Assembly (NCBI RefSeq): GCF_007833275.1
Contig: NZ_CP042241.1
Coordinates: 434,001 to 498,000 of the forward strand
Origin: Salarchaeum sp. JOR-1
GTDB lineage: Archaea; Halobacteriota; Halobacteria; Halobacteriales; Halobacteriaceae
Length of the DNA: 64,000 nucleotides
Direction: 5' to 3'
Part shown: one piece after another, positions 35,173 to 41,233 of the stretch
How positions within the stretch are numbered: the first letter of the stretch is position 1
Layout: each line of letters begins with the position of its first letter
Notes under the pieces: model-generated
Databases searched by the model: none
Seen by the model: only the letters and a program-made list of their open reading frames with translations
What the model was told of the DNA's origin: nothing
Program-made: the position numbers and the translations under genes

Positions 35173-35991
35173 ATGGAAGACGACAACCAACTGTACAACC
35201 TCTCGCGGCGCAAAGTGCTCGGCGGCCTCGGCGCCGTCGGCCTCGCCAGCGCCGGCGCCGGCCTCGGCACCAGCGCCTACTTCACCGACACCGAATCCTT
35301 CACCGGCAACACGCTCACCGCCGGCGAACTCGACCTCGTTGTGGACTGGTTCACCGACGTCGACCAGGGCTCCGCGACGCCCGAACAACCCACCGCCAGC
35401 GGCACCATCGACGGCAACCCATCGGGCTACGCCTACGAAGTCACGGACGTGAAGCCCGGAGACAGCGGCACGGTCGCGTTCTGTCCGAAGATCGTCGACA
35501 ACCCCGCGTGGCTCTGGTTCGGCAGCGCGGACGGCGTGACCGACTACGAGAACGGCGTCAACGAACCCGAGGGCGACGTCGACAGCTCCAGCGGCGCGAT
35601 GGAGGGCGAACTCAGCGAGAGCATCGTCGTCTCCGTCGCGTACGCGGACAGCGTCGCCATCGAGAACGGCGAAGTCGTCTGCACGAACGAGGCCGTGCTC
35701 GGCTACCCGTCGGACTTCACGCTCGCCGACCTCGCCGCGGAACTCGAATCCGGCTTCCTGCTCGACCCCGACCGCGGCACGGCGGGCGTGCAGGCGTACC
35801 CCGCGTCGCCGGACACCGAGACCCAGACCGGCCCCTGCATCTGCGTCCACTGGGAACTCCCGACGACCGTCGGGAACGAGGTGCAAACGGACTCCCTCAC
35901 GATGGACTTCCAGCTGGTCGCCATGCAGGAACGCCACAACCCGAACGGCGGCAACAGCAGCGTCAACCCGTTCAACACGTCATCCAACTGA
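35173..35991 (+). CDS. TasA/camelysin-like secreted protein with SipW-dependent-type signal
   Basis: The 272-residue product has twin arginines at 12-13 (SRRKVLGGLG), a hydrophobic stretch to about 33, and the SipW-type junction AGLGTSAYFTDTES followed by TLTAGELDL (residues 48-55), diagnostic of TasA, CalY and camelysin. The mature part is acidic and beta-rich, with single Cys at 104 and 170 and PCICVHWELP near 221-230. TasA-type proteins polymerise into surface or matrix fibres. Its first ~50 codons are nearly identical in DNA to the next gene. Processing by the signal peptidase at 39465 is inferred. Confidence 0.8.
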   Translation: MEDDNQLYNLSRRKVLGGLGAVGLASAGAGLGTSAYFTDTESFTGNTLTAGELDLVVDWFTDVDQGSATPEQPTASGTIDGNPSGYAYEVTDVKPGDSGTVAFCPKIVDNPAWLWFGSADGVTDYENGVNEPEGDVDSSSGAMEGELSESIVVSVAYADSVAIENGEVVCTNEAVLGYPSDFTLADLAAELESGFLLDPDRGTAGVQAYPASPDTETQTGPCICVHWELPTTVGNEVQTDSLTMDFQLVAMQERHNPNGGNSSVNPFNTSSN

Positions 35992-36048
35992 ACCCCTGAA
36001 CTCCCGGGTTCGGTTTCCCCACGCCGGTAGCCGGTCACGCGACCGCGC

Positions 36049-36075
36049 GCGGTTCGACTCCGCCGGTGGGCCTCC
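36049..36075 (+). repeat. T-arm-like hairpin spacer repeat, copy 1
   Basis: GCGG-TTCGACT-CCGC folds into a small hairpin and is followed by CGGTGGGCCTCC. The 25 bases from 36051 match those from 37565 with four differences. It lies 21 bases before the start of the vWA-containing gene. Confidence 0.5.
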
Positions 36076-36095
36076 CCCGAACGGGGATCACAGCC

Positions 36096-37526
36096 ATGAA
36101 CGACGACACCAACGACCGACAACTGTACAACCTCTCGCGGCGCAAAGTGCTCGGCGGCCTCGGTGCCGTCGGCCTCGCCAGCGCCGGCGCCGGCCTCGGC
36201 ACCAGCGCCTACTTCACCGACACCGAATCCTTCACCGGCAACACGCTCGCCGCCGGCGAACTCGACCTGAAGCTCGACTACAAGTCCACGTACACGGGCG
36301 GCCCCGGCCGCCTCGAGGACATCCAGGCGATGGGCTACCCGGACGCGGAAGACCTCGGCGACGGCCGCTACCTGCTCGCCCAGACCCCGCGGCCCGGGGA
36401 CGGAATGGGCTGGGAGGACTACCTCCCCGAGTTCGACTTCTGTGCGCCCGAGAACGACCAGTACCTCGTGAACGGCGACGGCATCTCCATCTTCCACCTG
36501 GAGGACGTGAAGCCCGGGGACTCCGGTGAGATGACGGTCAGCATCCACATCTGTGACAACCCGGCGTGGCTGGAGATGGGCGGCGAGCTCAGCGAGAACG
36601 CCGACAACACGATGTCGGAACCAGAGAGCGAAGTCGATTCGACCCCCGACGCGGGCGAGCTCGCGGACGCCATCGAGGTCACCGTCTGGTACGACGAGGA
36701 CTGCGACAACGTCTACGAACCCACGGGCACGGGCGAACAGCAGGAGCTCGAAGTCGCGCTCGTCAGCGACGTCTCCGGGTCGATGAGTCAGGAGATCGGT
36801 GACCTGAAGTCGGCCGCGAAGGGGTTCGTCGACAACCTCTCCAGCCCGGACGAGGCGGCCGCGATCTCGTTCTCGGACGGATCGAGCCTCGACCAGCAAC
36901 TCACGACGAACTACCAGACCGTCAAGGACGCCATCGACCAGTACACATCCGGTGGCGGAACCGACATGGACCAAGGGATCAGCACGGCCGAGACCGAACT
37001 CATCAGTGGTGCGAACGCCACGAGCGGCGCGTCGAAGGTCATGATCGTCCTGACCGACGGCCAGCCGAGCAGCCAGCAGGCCGCGACCACCGCCGCGATG
37101 AACGCCAAGCAGGCGGGCATCCGCATCTTCACCATCGCGCTCGGCTCCGGCGCCGCGACCAGCTACCTAGAGAACAACATCGCGTCCAGCCCGGGCGACG
37201 CGTACGTCGCGCCCGACCCGTCCGACCTCGACACGGTCTACTCGGAGATCGCGCAGGTCGTGCTCGCCGGCGAACAGCTCATCGCGCAGGGCTCGCTCGC
37301 GGACGTCATGGCGCTGCTCGCCGGGGGCGTCGAACTGGACGGCGACCGCACCGAGGAGGGACGGCAGCCGTACCCCGGGAACACGACGCAGTGCATCGGG
37401 TTCGAGTGGGTGCTCCCCACCGACGTGGAGAACGAGGTGCAGACGGACAGCGTCGCGTTCAACGTGGACTTCACCGCGACCCAGTACCGCCACAACCCCC
37501 AGACCACGACCACGGCACCCCAGTAG
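36096..37526 (+). CDS. TasA-like secreted protein with a von Willebrand A domain
   Basis: This 476-residue protein has twin arginines (SRRKVLGG, 15-16), the SipW-type junction GLGTSAYFTDTES and LAAGELDL, then a TasA-like beta-rich part with DVKPGDSGEMTVSIHICDNP. At about 217-390 a vWA domain follows with a complete MIDAS: DVSGS (Asp225, Ser227, Ser229), Thr289 in GGGTD and Asp321 in LTDGQP. The TasA-like part resumes after it (LADVMALLAG, CIGFEWVLPT, RHNPQ), matching the C-terminus of the preceding gene, so the vWA domain is an insertion. Metal-dependent adhesion at a fibre surface or tip is a reasonable inference. It follows the first TasA-like gene by 104 bases. Confidence 0.82.
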   Translation: MNDDTNDRQLYNLSRRKVLGGLGAVGLASAGAGLGTSAYFTDTESFTGNTLAAGELDLKLDYKSTYTGGPGRLEDIQAMGYPDAEDLGDGRYLLAQTPRPGDGMGWEDYLPEFDFCAPENDQYLVNGDGISIFHLEDVKPGDSGEMTVSIHICDNPAWLEMGGELSENADNTMSEPESEVDSTPDAGELADAIEVTVWYDEDCDNVYEPTGTGEQQELEVALVSDVSGSMSQEIGDLKSAAKGFVDNLSSPDEAAAISFSDGSSLDQQLTTNYQTVKDAIDQYTSGGGTDMDQGISTAETELISGANATSGASKVMIVLTDGQPSSQQAATTAAMNAKQAGIRIFTIALGSGAATSYLENNIASSPGDAYVAPDPSDLDTVYSEIAQVVLAGEQLIAQGSLADVMALLAGGVELDGDRTEEGRQPYPGNTTQCIGFEWVLPTDVENEVQTDSVAFNVDFTATQYRHNPQTTTTAPQ

Positions 37527-37560
37527 TATCGCGTCCGAAACCCCGACCCGTGACGGCGTT

Positions 37561-37589
37561 CGGTGGTTCGATTCCACCGGCGGGTCTCC
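37561..37589 (+). repeat. T-arm-like hairpin spacer repeat, copy 2
   Basis: CGGTGG-TTCGATT-CCACCG forms a hairpin, followed by GCGGGTCTCC. It is similar to the copy before the vWA gene and lies about 100 bases before the third secreted-protein gene. A CCTATACCC box at about 37623 might be a further promoter. Confidence 0.5.
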
Positions 37590-37686
37590 ACAGTACGCTC
37601 TCCCTACCGCCGGAGTAGGAGACCTATACCCATGCCTCGGGACGTCCTGAGGACGACCAGACGCGGCCGCAGGCCGCCACCCGACG

Positions 37687-38415
37687 ATGACCCCACACCT
37701 CACTCGACGACACCTGCTCGGCGCGCTCGGCGCGAGCGGTGCGGCCGTGCTCGCCGGTCGCTCCGTGCTCGCCCGCGACCGCACCCCGCCCTATCAGCAC
37801 TACACGTACGCGCAGTCGGACGGCGGGGCGTTCCGAGTGGCGTGGTACGAGGAGTACAACGGCCGCGTGCTGTCGGCGTCGAACGGAACCACTCGGGAGA
37901 GCGCGCTCGACTCGGCGGCCGGGTACGTGGACGACCCCGCGAGCCCCGTCGTCGGCGTGACGAACGCGCTCCCCGGCGACTACGGGTCGGCCGTGTTCGG
38001 CCTGCTCGCGGAGGACGTGCCGCTCGACGTGTGGCTTCGCGTCCGCGCGACCGCGGACGCGGCCGCCCCCGAACCGGACGAGACGGACGCGAGCGCGAAC
38101 CTCGAAGACGTGACGGACGTGTCCGTCTCCCTCGACTCGTGCACGGGCGGATTGAGCGGGGAGTACGCGTACGTCGCGGGCGGGACGCTCCACGGCGTCG
38201 CGGACGCGCTCGCGGCGGGTGTCCGGCTCGAGTTCGACGGCGCGACGGGCTGTCCGGGCGCGCTCCCGATCGGCCAGCCGCGGTGCGTGACGTTCGACTG
38301 GGCGCTCGCGACCGCCGCCGGGAACGGCGCGATGGGCGACAGCGTGACGTTCGACGTGGAGTTCGTCGGCGCGGACTGCACGGCCGGCGTCGCGAACCCG
38401 TGGGGGGACGGATGA
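37687..38415 (+). CDS. Secreted protein with twin-arginine signal, divergent TasA-cluster member
   Basis: The 242-residue product begins MTPHLTRRHLLGALGASGAA (twin arginines 7-8), has a hydrophobic stretch to about residue 29, and an acidic beta-rich mature part with SLDSCTGG and paired Cys near the end (GCPGALPIGQPRCVTFDWAL). The late CVTFDWAL, then DSVTFDVEF, recalls the ends of the two TasA-like genes upstream (CIGFEWVL, DSVAFNVDF), so it is probably a diverged relative. The SipW junction motif itself is not clear. Its stop overlaps the next start. Confidence 0.68.
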   Translation: MTPHLTRRHLLGALGASGAAVLAGRSVLARDRTPPYQHYTYAQSDGGAFRVAWYEEYNGRVLSASNGTTRESALDSAAGYVDDPASPVVGVTNALPGDYGSAVFGLLAEDVPLDVWLRVRATADAAAPEPDETDASANLEDVTDVSVSLDSCTGGLSGEYAYVAGGTLHGVADALAAGVRLEFDGATGCPGALPIGQPRCVTFDWALATAAGNGAMGDSVTFDVEFVGADCTAGVANPWGDG

Positions 38416-39461
38416 GCGGACTGCGCCGCCGCGACGTGCTCGCGGCGGTCGGCGGCGTCGGCCTCGCCGGCGCGTTCGCCGGATCCGGAACTGTCGCGAT
38501 GTTCCGGGAGTCGGAGGCGTTCGCGGCCGGTCTGCGAGCCGGCGCGCTCGACGTGCGCGTCGAGGGCGGCGACGGCTGCGTGGTTCGGAACGACCGGGTG
38601 GCGCTCGACCTCACCGACCTCAACCCGGGCGCGTGCGGGGACGCGACCCTGTGCGGAATCGTGGACGGAAACCCGGCGTGGCTGTGGCTGCGCGCGACCT
38701 GCCCGACGGACGCCGCCGTCTTCGACGCCGTGTTCCTCCGCGTCCGGTACGCGAACGGAACCGTGGTCGTCACGGACGACGGCACCGCGCTGGACGGCAC
38801 CGCGCGCCGCGTGTTCGCCGCGCTCGCGGACGGGGTTCGGCTCGACCCGACCGGCGGGGACGCGCCCGTCGCGCCCGGCGACCGCGTCTGCCTCACCGTC
38901 GAGTGGGGCGTCATCGATATCCACGGCGGCGTCGAGACGGCGTGCGCGGTGGACGCCGACGCGCTCGACGACCCGGCCGCGTTCGCGTTCGAGTTCGGCG
39001 CGCTCCAGGCGCGCCACGCGTCGCCCGCGCTGTCCCCGTGGACTGCGATCGGCTGTCAGTCGGTCGCCGCGCGCTGCGTCGGCTGTCGCGAACTCGGGAA
39101 GGTGGACGACATCGACGGCCGCCTCGTCGCCGGCACCGAGTACGCCGTCGGCGACTCCGGGTACGCGATGCTCGTGGACAACGTCGAATACAAGGACGGC
39201 GACGAGGCGGTAGCGGTTCGCGCGTTCCGCCTCGTCGAGGCCGGAACGGGGGACGCGCCCGTGCTCGGCCCGCCCGTCTGCCGCGTGGACGTGAAGGGCG
39301 GGTCGGGCGGTCGGACGGGAGGGACGCGCACGCACGAGGTGTGTCCGCCGACCGCCGCACCCGCGGGGGAGTTCGACGCACCGACGAACCGGGGCGGGAG
39401 ACGACCCGGAATCAGCCACGTCACGGTCTACACGTGCGGCGTTCCGCCGCGCTGTTGGTAA
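38412..39461 (+). CDS. Secreted SipW-type protein with a Cys-rich C-terminal domain
   Basis: This 349-residue product has arginines 5-7 (LRRRDVLAAVGG), the junction FAGSGTVAMFRESEAFAAGL and LRAGALDVRVE, matching the SipW-dependent signal pattern in diverged form. Residues ~45-205 are TasA-like (LTDLNPGACGDATLCGIVDG, VCLTVEWG, FGALQARH). A separate tail from about 210 carries seven cysteines (215, 222, 225, 290, 311, 342, 348) and a Gly-rich KGGSGGRTGGT stretch; I do not recognise it. It may be a capping or cross-linking subunit. The start overlaps the preceding stop and three bases separate it from the peptidase gene. Confidence 0.7.
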   Translation: MSGLRRRDVLAAVGGVGLAGAFAGSGTVAMFRESEAFAAGLRAGALDVRVEGGDGCVVRNDRVALDLTDLNPGACGDATLCGIVDGNPAWLWLRATCPTDAAVFDAVFLRVRYANGTVVVTDDGTALDGTARRVFAALADGVRLDPTGGDAPVAPGDRVCLTVEWGVIDIHGGVETACAVDADALDDPAAFAFEFGALQARHASPALSPWTAIGCQSVAARCVGCRELGKVDDIDGRLVAGTEYAVGDSGYAMLVDNVEYKDGDEAVAVRAFRLVEAGTGDAPVLGPPVCRVDVKGGSGGRTGGTRTHEVCPPTAAPAGEFDAPTNRGGRRPGISHVTVYTCGVPPRCW

Positions 39462-39464
39462 CTC

Positions 39465-40487
39465 ATGAGAGACAAGATTCGGTCAATCAGTCGGAAACGC
39501 GCGCTCGCCGTCGCGGGAACGCTCCTGCTCGTCGCGCTCGTCGTTCCGTTCGCGGTGTTCGCAGTCCCCCAGCTCGCCGGCGGGAGTCACAGCTACGTCG
39601 TGCTCAGCGGGAGCATGGAACCGGCGATCAGCCCCGGCGACGTGGTCGTCGTGTCGGGCGTCGACCCGGCCGCCATCGGCGTGAACGACGTGGTGACGTT
39701 CCAGCGGGACGCCTCGCCGGTGCCGACGACGCACCGCGTCGTCGAAGTCATCGACGACGGGGGCGCGCTCGCGTTCCGGACGATGGGTGACGCGAACGAA
39801 GACCCGGACGGCGCGGCCGTCCCCGCGAGCGCCGTCATCGGCCGAGTGACGCTCGTGATCCCCTACATCGGGTACGTCATCGAGGCGGCGAACACCCCGG
39901 TCGGGTTCCTCGCGCTCGTCGTCGCGCCGTTCGGCCTGCTCGCGCTCACGGAAGCCTACGCGTACCTCCGGCGGCGCGGGAACGCGACCGCCGACGAGTC
40001 CGGTGACGTGGCCGACGGCGGCCGCGACGCGGGCGAGGACGTGGTCGTCGTGTCGGGGCCGACGCCGGTCTCCGACAGCCCGGACGGGTTCGCGGTGAGC
40101 GACGGGACGCTGAACGCGGTGCTCGGCGTGCTCGGCGCGGCGACGGCGTACGCGCTCGCCGTCGCGTACCTCGTGCGGACGCCGTGGGCGGTCGCGGCGC
40201 TCGTCGCGGGCGTCGTCGGACTCGCGCTCGTCGCGTCCGTCAAGTACGGCGAGCGCGGGGCGAGCGGGCGGGCGACGCACACGGACGGCGGCCTCGGCGC
40301 GGTCGTCGGGTCGGTTCCGGAGCGCTACACCGTCCCCGTCGTCAGCGTGCACACGGCGCGCGACCTGGCGTCGCTCGCCGCCGACCTCGACCGCGTCGTC
40401 GTGTACGACCCCGACCGCCGCCGGTACGTCGCCGTGGACGACGCGGCGGTCTACGTCTACGACGAGGACGTCGGGGGGGCGGAGTGA
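39465..40487 (+). CDS. Signal peptidase I, SipW/ER type, with C-terminal extension
   Basis: The 340-residue protein has an N-terminal membrane helix (about 13-35), catalytic VVLSGSMEP (Ser50), VPTTHRVVEV (His90 in place of the bacterial Lys) and RTMGDANEDPD (Asp109), so it is a Ser-His S26B peptidase like SipW and ER SPC. Unlike the short housekeeping enzyme it goes on past residue 145 with a further helix, an acidic linker, two more helices near 210-250 and a soluble tail. Its place between secreted SipW-type proteins argues that it is their dedicated processing enzyme. Start MRDKIRSISRKRA at 39465. Confidence 0.85.
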   Translation: MRDKIRSISRKRALAVAGTLLLVALVVPFAVFAVPQLAGGSHSYVVLSGSMEPAISPGDVVVVSGVDPAAIGVNDVVTFQRDASPVPTTHRVVEVIDDGGALAFRTMGDANEDPDGAAVPASAVIGRVTLVIPYIGYVIEAANTPVGFLALVVAPFGLLALTEAYAYLRRRGNATADESGDVADGGRDAGEDVVVVSGPTPVSDSPDGFAVSDGTLNAVLGVLGAATAYALAVAYLVRTPWAVAALVAGVVGLALVASVKYGERGASGRATHTDGGLGAVVGSVPERYTVPVVSVHTARDLASLAADLDRVVVYDPDRRRYVAVDDAAVYVYDEDVGGAE

Positions 40488-41233
40488 TGCGCGCCCTCCG
40501 GTTCGCGCTTCCGGTCGCGCTCGCGCTCGCCGTCGTCAGCGGCGGCGTCACGTACGGCCTCTTCACGGACACCGAACAGGTCTCCGGCACCATCGGCATC
40601 GACGCCTCCCAGAACCGCGACTGGGGCCACGGCTGGACCGCCCAGACCGCCGCCGTCACCGCGGACGCACCTCTGAACGACACCGCCGAGAACGGGACGG
40701 CCACGAACGACACGGGGGCTCTCGATCCGTCGAACGAGCCGCTCACGGGCGCGGTGCTCGGGAACGGAACCGCCAACGGCACGGCGACAAACGCTAGCGC
40801 GACGAACGATACGGCGACACCCACAAACGATACCGCGACACCCGCAAACGATACCGCGACACCCACAAACGACACCGCGACACCCACAAACGATACCGCG
40901 ACACCCGCAAACGACACGACGACACCCACAAACGACACGGCCACGCCGCCCGTCGAGGCCGGCGGCGAGAACGAGTCCGTCGGCGGGATCGGCGACACGA
41001 CCGCCAACAACACGACCACGAACGGCGCGGCGGACGCGCCCGTGGAGCCGGCGAACGAAACCGCCGGGAGAAGCGGAGCGGGGGGCGCAGCAGAGAACGA
41101 GACGCCGGGGAACGGCTCGGCGGGGTCTGCCGGCGCTACCGACGGCGAATCAGGCGATGGGGCGGCGCGACTGAGTTACGTCGCGGTTTCGGCTTCGGCC
41201 TCAGCCCCGTCGGCGGACGCGGTGAGTGAGTAG
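40487..41233 (+). CDS. Mucin-like Asn/Thr-rich secreted protein with SipW-type signal
   Basis: The 248-residue product has a hydrophobic N-terminus ending SGGVTYGLFTDTEQVSGTI, the FTDTE junction seen in the TasA-like genes. The rest is low complexity, Asn-, Thr- and Gly-rich, with seven NDTATPT/A units (residues 107-155) and many further N-x-T/S sequons, so heavy N-glycosylation is likely. It ends in a weakly hydrophobic Ala/Ser stretch. It overlaps the peptidase stop as TGATG, tying it to that operon. A stalk, linker or sheath role is inferred. Confidence 0.72.
   Translation: MRALRFALPVALALAVVSGGVTYGLFTDTEQVSGTIGIDASQNRDWGHGWTAQTAAVTADAPLNDTAENGTATNDTGALDPSNEPLTGAVLGNGTANGTATNASATNDTATPTNDTATPANDTATPTNDTATPTNDTATPANDTTTPTNDTATPPVEAGGENESVGGIGDTTANNTTTNGAADAPVEPANETAGRSGAGGAAENETPGNGSAGSAGATDGESGDGAARLSYVAVSASASAPSADAVSE
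40805..40951 (+). repeat. 21-bp tandem repeat encoding NDTATPT/A (seven units)
   Basis: Seven in-frame 21-base units, each close to AACGATACCGCGACACCCAC plus one base, encode N-D-T-A-T-P-(T/A/P), with one unit as NDTTTPT. Units differ at third positions and at the final codon. The repeat number probably varies between strains. Confidence 0.85.

Follow-up and report, generated by a model that had tools for sequence, protein, structure and literature searches.

TasA fibres build Bacillus biofilms. In the Bacillus subtilis tapA-sipW-tasA operon (PDB 8aur; PMC9674648), the TasA subunit is encoded together with an endoplasmic reticulum (ER)-type signal peptidase, and the SipW junction carries an aromatic residue at P2′. 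Here we describe a related locus in Salarchaeum sp. JOR-1 (GCF_007833275.1, a 2.52 Mb genome in two contigs). It lies in the window, the whole stretch of 64,000 nucleotides (nt) that was analysed (contig NZ_CP042241.1, 434,001–498,000, forward strand). All coordinates are window positions, counted from its first letter as position 1, unless a genome or locus label is given. At 35173–41233 there are six open reading frames (ORFs), P0001 to P0006, all on the plus strand. We read them as encoding a TasA-type fibre, probably exported by the twin-arginine translocation (Tat) pathway and matured by a SipW-like peptidase, with a VWA-bearing adhesive subunit and an mRNA punctuated by tRNA-like elements (t-elements). 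The probability of this whole reading is, in our estimate, about 0.72.

35173..35991, plus strand: P0001, TasA/camelysin-family subunit with a twin-arginine and SipW-type signal (TIGR04088, AlphaFold/PDB match, hhalign)
36096..37526, plus strand: P0002, TasA-like subunit with an inserted VWA domain (PF00092, alignment to P0001, metal ion-dependent adhesion site, MIDAS)
37687..38415, plus strand: P0003, TasA-domain paralogue; its signal is Tat-like and has no SipW motif (BLASTP to P0001, E 7e-8)
38412..39461, plus strand: P0004, TasA-domain paralogue; signal of a diverged Tat/SipW type, C-terminal extension rich in Cys (BLASTP to P0001, E 8e-17)
39465..40487, plus strand: P0005, SipW-like archaeal type I signal peptidase (TIGR02228, NF046067, catalytic triad)
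40487..41233, plus strand: P0006, N-sequon-rich secreted protein, SipW-type signal (TIGR04088, 18.8–22.6 bits)

Comparison with described systems

Like the B. subtilis operon, the locus combines a TasA-like domain, an ER-type peptidase encoded in the operon and a SipW junction with an aromatic P2′. Unlike that operon, it has twin-arginine signals, four TasA-domain paralogues of which one is VWA-inserted, a divergent DUF7344 regulator gene and tRNA-like spacers, and no TapA was identified. The protein system is described here as a new variant of the known TasA/SipW kind. The Bacillus cereus sipW-tasA-calY-CapP system (PMC13082335) likewise has several SipW-processed subunits and an accessory assembly factor; its host is bacterial, and VWA goes unmentioned in the text of that paper. 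Archaeal bundling pili (Pyrobaculum AbpA; Wang et al. 2022) are related to TasA by donor-strand complementation, as cited in PMC9674648. The bundling-pilus hosts are hyperthermophiles, unlike here, and a profile of P0001 relatives matches AbpX (PDB 9sj2) weakly (E 0.33). We know of no bundling pilus with a VWA subunit, a Tat signal or a t-element arrangement, and of no tRNA-like elements in the B. cereus system. A literature search of partial coverage returned no description of a haloarchaeal TasA/SipW system, and public annotation of the module genes is generic (‘vWA domain-containing protein’, ‘signal peptidase I’).

An initial annotation, made from the letters of the window, had listed six plus-strand genes here, and all ORFs were found where it placed them; the locus it observed is confirmed as real. 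Its further proposal, that TasA/camelysin-type subunits and a dedicated SipW-like peptidase form one self-contained locus, is borne out by the fold match, the profile link, the peptidase scores and the genome-wide uniqueness given below. Its interpretation as a fibre or matrix operon is partly supported. The cap and the linker that it also proposed are putative roles for P0004 and P0006. The Tat signals, the VWA insertion in P0002, the paralogy of P0003 and P0004, the DUF7344 regulator and the tRNA-like elements in the spacers go beyond that annotation.

TasA-like subunits and an inserted VWA domain

P0001, P0003 and P0004 are homologous across most of their length, as the BLASTP values listed above indicate. 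The AlphaFold model of P0001 has a mean predicted local distance difference test score of 74.9, with residues 1–38, the signal, scoring low. Its best PDB match by Foldseek is the TasA fibre 8aur (probability 0.97, E 6.8e-3), and the next best match reaches a probability of 0.57, which agrees with the TasA relationship that had been predicted. At the profile level, P0001 relatives can be aligned along their whole length to CalY-like proteins of haloarchaea (hhalign probability 99.9, E 1.8e-35, a score to which the shared signal contributes part), and the CalY-like profile in turn matches TasA over most of its length (E 4.8e-15). By these sequence and model comparisons P0001 falls in the TasA/camelysin (M73) fibre subunit family, with a predicted TasA-like jellyroll domain.

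The camelysin side of this family suggests another function, namely that of secreted, camelysin-like metallopeptidases (M73) clustered with their signal peptidase, and no fibre. PF12389, the camelysin metallo-endopeptidase family, matches 33 of 34 P0001 relatives, but the matches shown fall mostly in the signal region and the HExxH motif is absent from the sequences of all four proteins. By structure the closest match is TasA, itself a structural protein of fibres, and several paralogues, one of them VWA-inserted, suit assembly better than enzymes. Given the absent HExxH and the TasA fold, we rejected a set of peptidases as the main interpretation and regard it as very improbable.

P0002 departs from the other subunits by its inserted domain:

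nt 36753-37241, plus strand: VWA domain of P0002, residues 220-382 (PF00092, 3.6e-21)

When the VWA domain is removed, the rest of P0002 aligns to P0001 with 45% identity over 157 amino acids; the VWA domain thus interrupts a TasA-like domain. The MIDAS residues D225, S227, S229, T289 and D321 (DxSxS...T...D) are invariant across 26 sequences, P0002 and 25 relatives. The PDB matches of the P0002 model are to its VWA domain, and the pilus adhesin SpaC is among them. VWA tip adhesins such as SpaC (6m48) and Mfa5 (6tnj) resemble P0002 in placing a VWA domain on a pilus subunit; their backbones, however, are unrelated (sortase pili and type V fimbriae), whereas the VWA domain of P0002 interrupts a TasA-like domain. 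The adhesive subunit proposed in the initial annotation holds in part, as the role suits P0002 with its inserted VWA and intact MIDAS. The C-terminal extension of P0004 contains 13 Cys.

A repeat search found that the signal-coding DNA of P0001 (35180-35336, plus strand) is 97% identical to that of P0002 (36112-36268). The signals are 0.98 identical at the nucleotide level, compared with an amino acid identity of 0.37 in the mature parts, and the signal segments have probably undergone recent gene conversion. We considered a general concerted evolution of the signals. Fourfold-site identity is 0.55 within loci versus 0.46 between loci, a difference too small to support the claim given shared codon bias. 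The P0001/P0002 pair in the window is the only clear case of homogenised signals.

Export signals and the SipW-like peptidase

The P0001 signal reads SRRKVLGG...GTSA|YFTDTE, with the cut site placed by prediction. TIGR04088, the model for SipW-dependent-type signals (cut-off 19 bits), gives 31.7 bits for P0001 and 28.9 bits for P0002 in the protein scan, in line with the two clear signals noted earlier. The diverged signals claimed for the fourth and sixth genes were recovered as well. P0004 (AMFRESE) reaches about 44–48 bits with a signal model built from this locus, and P0006 scores 18.8 bits with TIGR04088 in the protein scan and 22.6 bits in the genome scan. Neither P0003 nor P0004 passes TIGR04088, and P0004 yields no match to it; the start of P0003 is Tat-like (RRHLLG) and lacks the SipW motif.

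All strong signals open with a twin arginine. To avoid signal-model bias, ORFs were collected with a profile of the mature domain, and 261 of these 266 carry RR before an uncharged stretch; the other five are fragments or mis-started ORFs. By this motif the subunits are predicted Tat substrates. P0006 has the SipW-type junction and no twin arginine.

The signal junction follows the pattern G-T-x-A-x-F-x-D, in which neither A35 nor F37 varies among 34 sequences. With a predicted cut after A35, F37 would be P2′. A phenylalanine at P2′ is the reason why LepB handles Bacillus TasA poorly and SipW cuts it (PMC10269814).

The candidate enzyme for this cut is P0005, with the following predicted active-site codons on the plus strand:

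39612-39614, plus strand: Ser50
39732-39734, plus strand: His90
39789-39791, plus strand: Asp109

P0005 scores 102.6 bits with the archaeal signal peptidase I model TIGR02228 (cut-off 51.85). None of the residues Ser50, His90 and Asp109 varies among 18 relatives, so the Ser-His assignment made for this gene stands; the enzyme is of the Ser-His(-Asp) type, not Ser-Lys. The SipW model NF046067 gives P0005 96.4 bits versus 27.8 bits for the general Sec11 of the genome, from which P0005 is distinct by sequence. We call P0005 SipW-like, not SipW, because it stays under the NF046067 cut-off of 190 bits. Its C-terminal membrane extension shows weak similarity to DUF5305 (E 1.2e-6, just under the cut-off). 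A candidate second SipW-like locus (G000:C2:343626-343799, L146) turned out to be a C-terminal remnant without the Ser/His part, and is probably a decayed copy.

Conservation of the module and its probable regulator

Of 245 genomes sampled from the order, 91 contain a relative of P0005, spread over 43 of 78 genera. Among 74 haloarchaeal SipW-like loci, 71 contain at least one subunit gene and 65 at least two, a VWA-bearing subunit is encoded in 58, and in 63 the gene after the peptidase gene is P0006-like or signal-bearing. The common gene order is subunits, P0003-like, P0004-like, peptidase and P0006-like, with the P0003-like gene preceding the P0004-like gene in most loci, and TasA-domain paralogues stand in tandem (mean 3.1 per locus). 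Within the JOR-1 genome, the only three TIGR04088 matches over the cut-off and all clear TasA-like matches lie in the locus. Since the signal matches are confined in this way and the arrangement recurs in 71 of 74 loci, the pattern is not due to chance.

These data also bear on the possibility that the proteins are non-polymerising surface proteins, a VWA adhesin and its partners, that share a processing enzyme. The evidence reaches homology and not assembly, VWA proteins are often monomeric adhesins, and the SipW junction is absent in P0003. On the other hand, tandem TasA-domain paralogues and an invariant signal-junction region speak for assembly, as does a fixed gene order with a SipW-like enzyme that resembles the tapA-sipW-tasA operon (PMC9674648). 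We consider the non-polymerising alternative unlikely and retain the fibre.

A candidate regulator gene lies upstream of P0001:

34360..34932, minus strand: P0008, DUF7344 winged-helix regulator with a C-terminal membrane segment (PF24035, 8.5e-26)

In 56 of 71 loci a divergent P0008-like DUF7344 gene precedes the first subunit gene at a distance of 0–548 nt; a hydrophobic segment at the C-terminus is present in 55 of the 56 homologues. A membrane-anchored DUF7344 regulator probably controls the operon.

The module is patchy, because the sole sampled genome of the same genus (G118) has small CalY-type genes instead; in it, three such genes with twin-arginine/SipW signals were seen at L048:12120-14109 (minus strand). 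SipW-plus-signal loci are also present in Patescibacteria, in a looser form. On plasmid unnamed1 of Halorientalis marina, a TatA/TatE gene adjoins the module (L209:3669-3923).

tRNA-like elements in the spacers

The spacers on both sides of P0002 contain structured elements:

36018..36073, plus strand: tRNA-like element 1, P0001-P0002 spacer, long-linker type (covariance-model match, 21.7 bits)
36051-36061, plus strand: T-arm motif GGTTCGACTCC of element 1
36074..36095, plus strand: predicted processed 5′ leader of the P0002 mRNA, opening with the hairpin CCCC(CGAA)GGGG (fold)
37545..37588, plus strand: tRNA-like element 2, P0002-P0003 spacer, compact, with acceptor stem, GG-bearing linker and T-arm (59.1 bits)

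The T-arm motif GGTTCGANTCC occurs in both spacers (36051-36061 and 37565-37575), and the window as a whole contains four matches versus 0.39 expected. ARAGORN and Rfam found no tRNA genes or known RNAs in these spacers. Across the homologous loci, 108 occurrences lie in module spacers in sense orientation, compared with 2 in coding sequence, 3 on the minus strand and 1 outside, and a relaxed form of the motif is present in 86 of 113 subunit-to-subunit spacers.

Upstream of the T-arm lies a strand that pairs with the segment downstream of it, forming an acceptor-like stem stacked on the T-arm. In an unselected comparison the mean matched helix is 5.50, versus 4.82 (standard deviation 0.08) for swapped partners and 4.43 for shuffled sequence. 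In the stem of the T-arm, the loop of which is of the TTCRANY type, 30 cells show change on both sides versus 8.9 in shuffled alignments, a value reached in 0 of 500 shuffles. For a covariance model, ten elements of the same length, the window element at 37545-37588 among them, served as the seed, as the MAFFT alignment had ragged 5′ strands. The model has 112 matches in 1.46 Mb of locus DNA, and all 112 are in sense. Compensatory change is found in 11 of 13 pairs, including all 7 acceptor pairs (137 cells versus 49.5 shuffled), in an alignment that leans to the model and includes the seeds. The minimum-free-energy fold of element 2 (−20.9 kcal/mol) is identical to the structure of the model. 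The linker contains a conserved GG pair, which may mimic the GG with which the D-loop docks on the T-loop.

The same model links the spacers to 5S rRNA. In the JOR-1 genome it matches both spacers and also the leader of 5S rRNA at C2:549549 (38.4 bits, a non-seed sequence), besides one further site at noise level. In a search of 59 genomes, 38 matches pass E 0.01. Among the contexts read, weak own-genome matches included, 14 lie at 5S rRNA and nine in TasA-like operons, and in two the match precedes a DUF1102-type pilin gene; the remaining contexts are other spacers or unclear. In most complete 5S contexts the last position of the model is the first base of 5S. The Haloferax volcanii 5S t-element (Hoelzle 2008, 2012, cited in PMC4326828) shares with the spacer elements a minimal acceptor stem plus T-arm, the covariance model and the position at which the following RNA begins. 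Unlike it, the elements described here are repeated in the mRNA spacers of a surface operon and are followed by a CCCC/GGGG hairpin. By sequence and covarying structure the spacer elements are thus of the same kind as the 5S t-element, and appear to be a known kind of element in a new setting. No description of t-elements in a surface operon was found in our literature search, the coverage of which was partial.

In Haloferax the 5S t-element is cut by tRNase Z (PMC4326828), and RNase P and tRNase Z generally act on t-elements (PMC4326828; PMC4946936). This analogy places the predicted cuts near 36073/36074 and 37587/37588. In 91 of 109 elements a hairpin of at least 4 base pairs begins at that point, versus a mean of 28 and a maximum of 45 in shuffled sequences.

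Alternatively, the elements might be intact RNA structures (stabilisers, translation control or protein-binding sites) or tRNA-derived scars, and not processing sites. Cutting in the spacers is deduced by analogy, the strongest part is the T-arm by itself, and a long linker or a weak acceptor stem occurs in some elements. Scars, however, would not be expected to keep compensatory pairs, nor to recur in so many of the subunit-to-subunit spacers. Against an intact RNA stand the detection of the 5S t-element, which tRNase Z cuts (PMC4326828), by the same model, and the downstream hairpin that begins at the predicted cut. We therefore favour processing sites and regard this alternative as rather doubtful.

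Further matches were seen outside the TasA-like operons. At L205:950-1550 (minus strand) and L185:1501-1600 (plus strand), a t-element lies just upstream of DUF1102-type Tat-signal pilin genes. The L205 element carries a CCCC/GGGG leader hairpin, and the L205 protein matches PDB 9p0a, ‘Pilin’ (E 2.4e-12). This haloarchaeal pilin has a Tat-like N-terminus (NRRNVLVGLG...) and, in the two loci, a t-element upstream, as here; it belongs to a different protein family from P0001–P0004. t-elements may mark haloarchaeal filament genes more widely. Strong matches were also found at about 1501-1544 of L183 and L192 (51 and 42 bits), in spacers of genes unrelated to surface fibres.

Proposed assembly and points against it

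From these results we infer the following model. The Tat pathway would export P0001, P0002 and the paralogues P0003 and P0004, probably pre-folded. P0005 would then remove the signal before the A|Y-F-T-D junction and free an N-terminal strand, which could complement a neighbouring subunit as in TasA (PMC9674648). P0002 would put its MIDAS-bearing VWA domain on the fibre as a metal-dependent adhesive subunit, and P0003, P0004 and P0006 may be accessory, starter, terminal or anchoring components. At the RNA level, RNase P and tRNase Z would cut the polycistronic mRNA at the tRNA-like elements between subunit genes, which would leave a short leader, with a hairpin at its 5′ end, on every downstream subunit message. 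One subunit message would be parted from the next, and all of them from the tightly packed P0003–P0006, and unequal subunit amounts could arise from one transcript. For the combined proposal, in which cutting at tRNA mimics sets the stoichiometry and leaves protected 5′ hairpins on the messages of a Tat-exported TasA relative with a VWA adhesin inside the subunit fold, we see the odds as even.

Several observations count against the fibre interpretation. The Foldseek E-value to TasA is just 6.8e-3 and the TM-scores are low (0.33–0.38); therefore the P0001 fold match alone is moderate evidence. The direct comparison of the P0001-relative profile with TasA is weak (E 0.11). The gathering score of PF12389 (22.5 bits) is narrowly missed by P0001 (21.7 bits); P0002 scores 20.4 bits, and some orthologues pass. 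Matches of the SipW-type model fall mostly on the signal. P0005 is far under the equivalog cut-off of Bacillus SipW, and the NCBIfam Tat model TIGR01409 stays below its cut-off for P0001 and P0002. On the RNA side, element 1 taken by itself is weak (E 0.38 when the loci were searched, 0.66 for the genome), it folds no more stably than shuffles and its identification rests on the family pattern; element 2 is itself a seed of the model. Moreover, the locus is known here from sequence comparison, predicted structures and its genes.

If the reading is true, the TasA family of biofilm fibres extends to Halobacteria. It would also combine Tat export of folded proteins with a SipW-type peptidase, so that donor-strand building from pre-folded subunits becomes testable. 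Archaea would, in addition, use tRNA-processing enzymes to divide an operon mRNA; in the surveyed literature, such cutting is described for 5S rRNA and engineered constructs.

Genes at the downstream end

One further gene overlaps the end of P0006:

41176-41496, minus strand: P0007, small winged-helix gene, convergent with P0006

We considered P0007 as part of the module and rejected it, since the other loci yielded no homologue. P0006 itself had been described as a mucin-like protein with the same junction as the subunits. The junction is present; ‘mucin-like’ is better replaced by N-sequon-rich, as P0006 contains 19 NxS/T sequons in 248 amino acids and seven 7-residue repeats.

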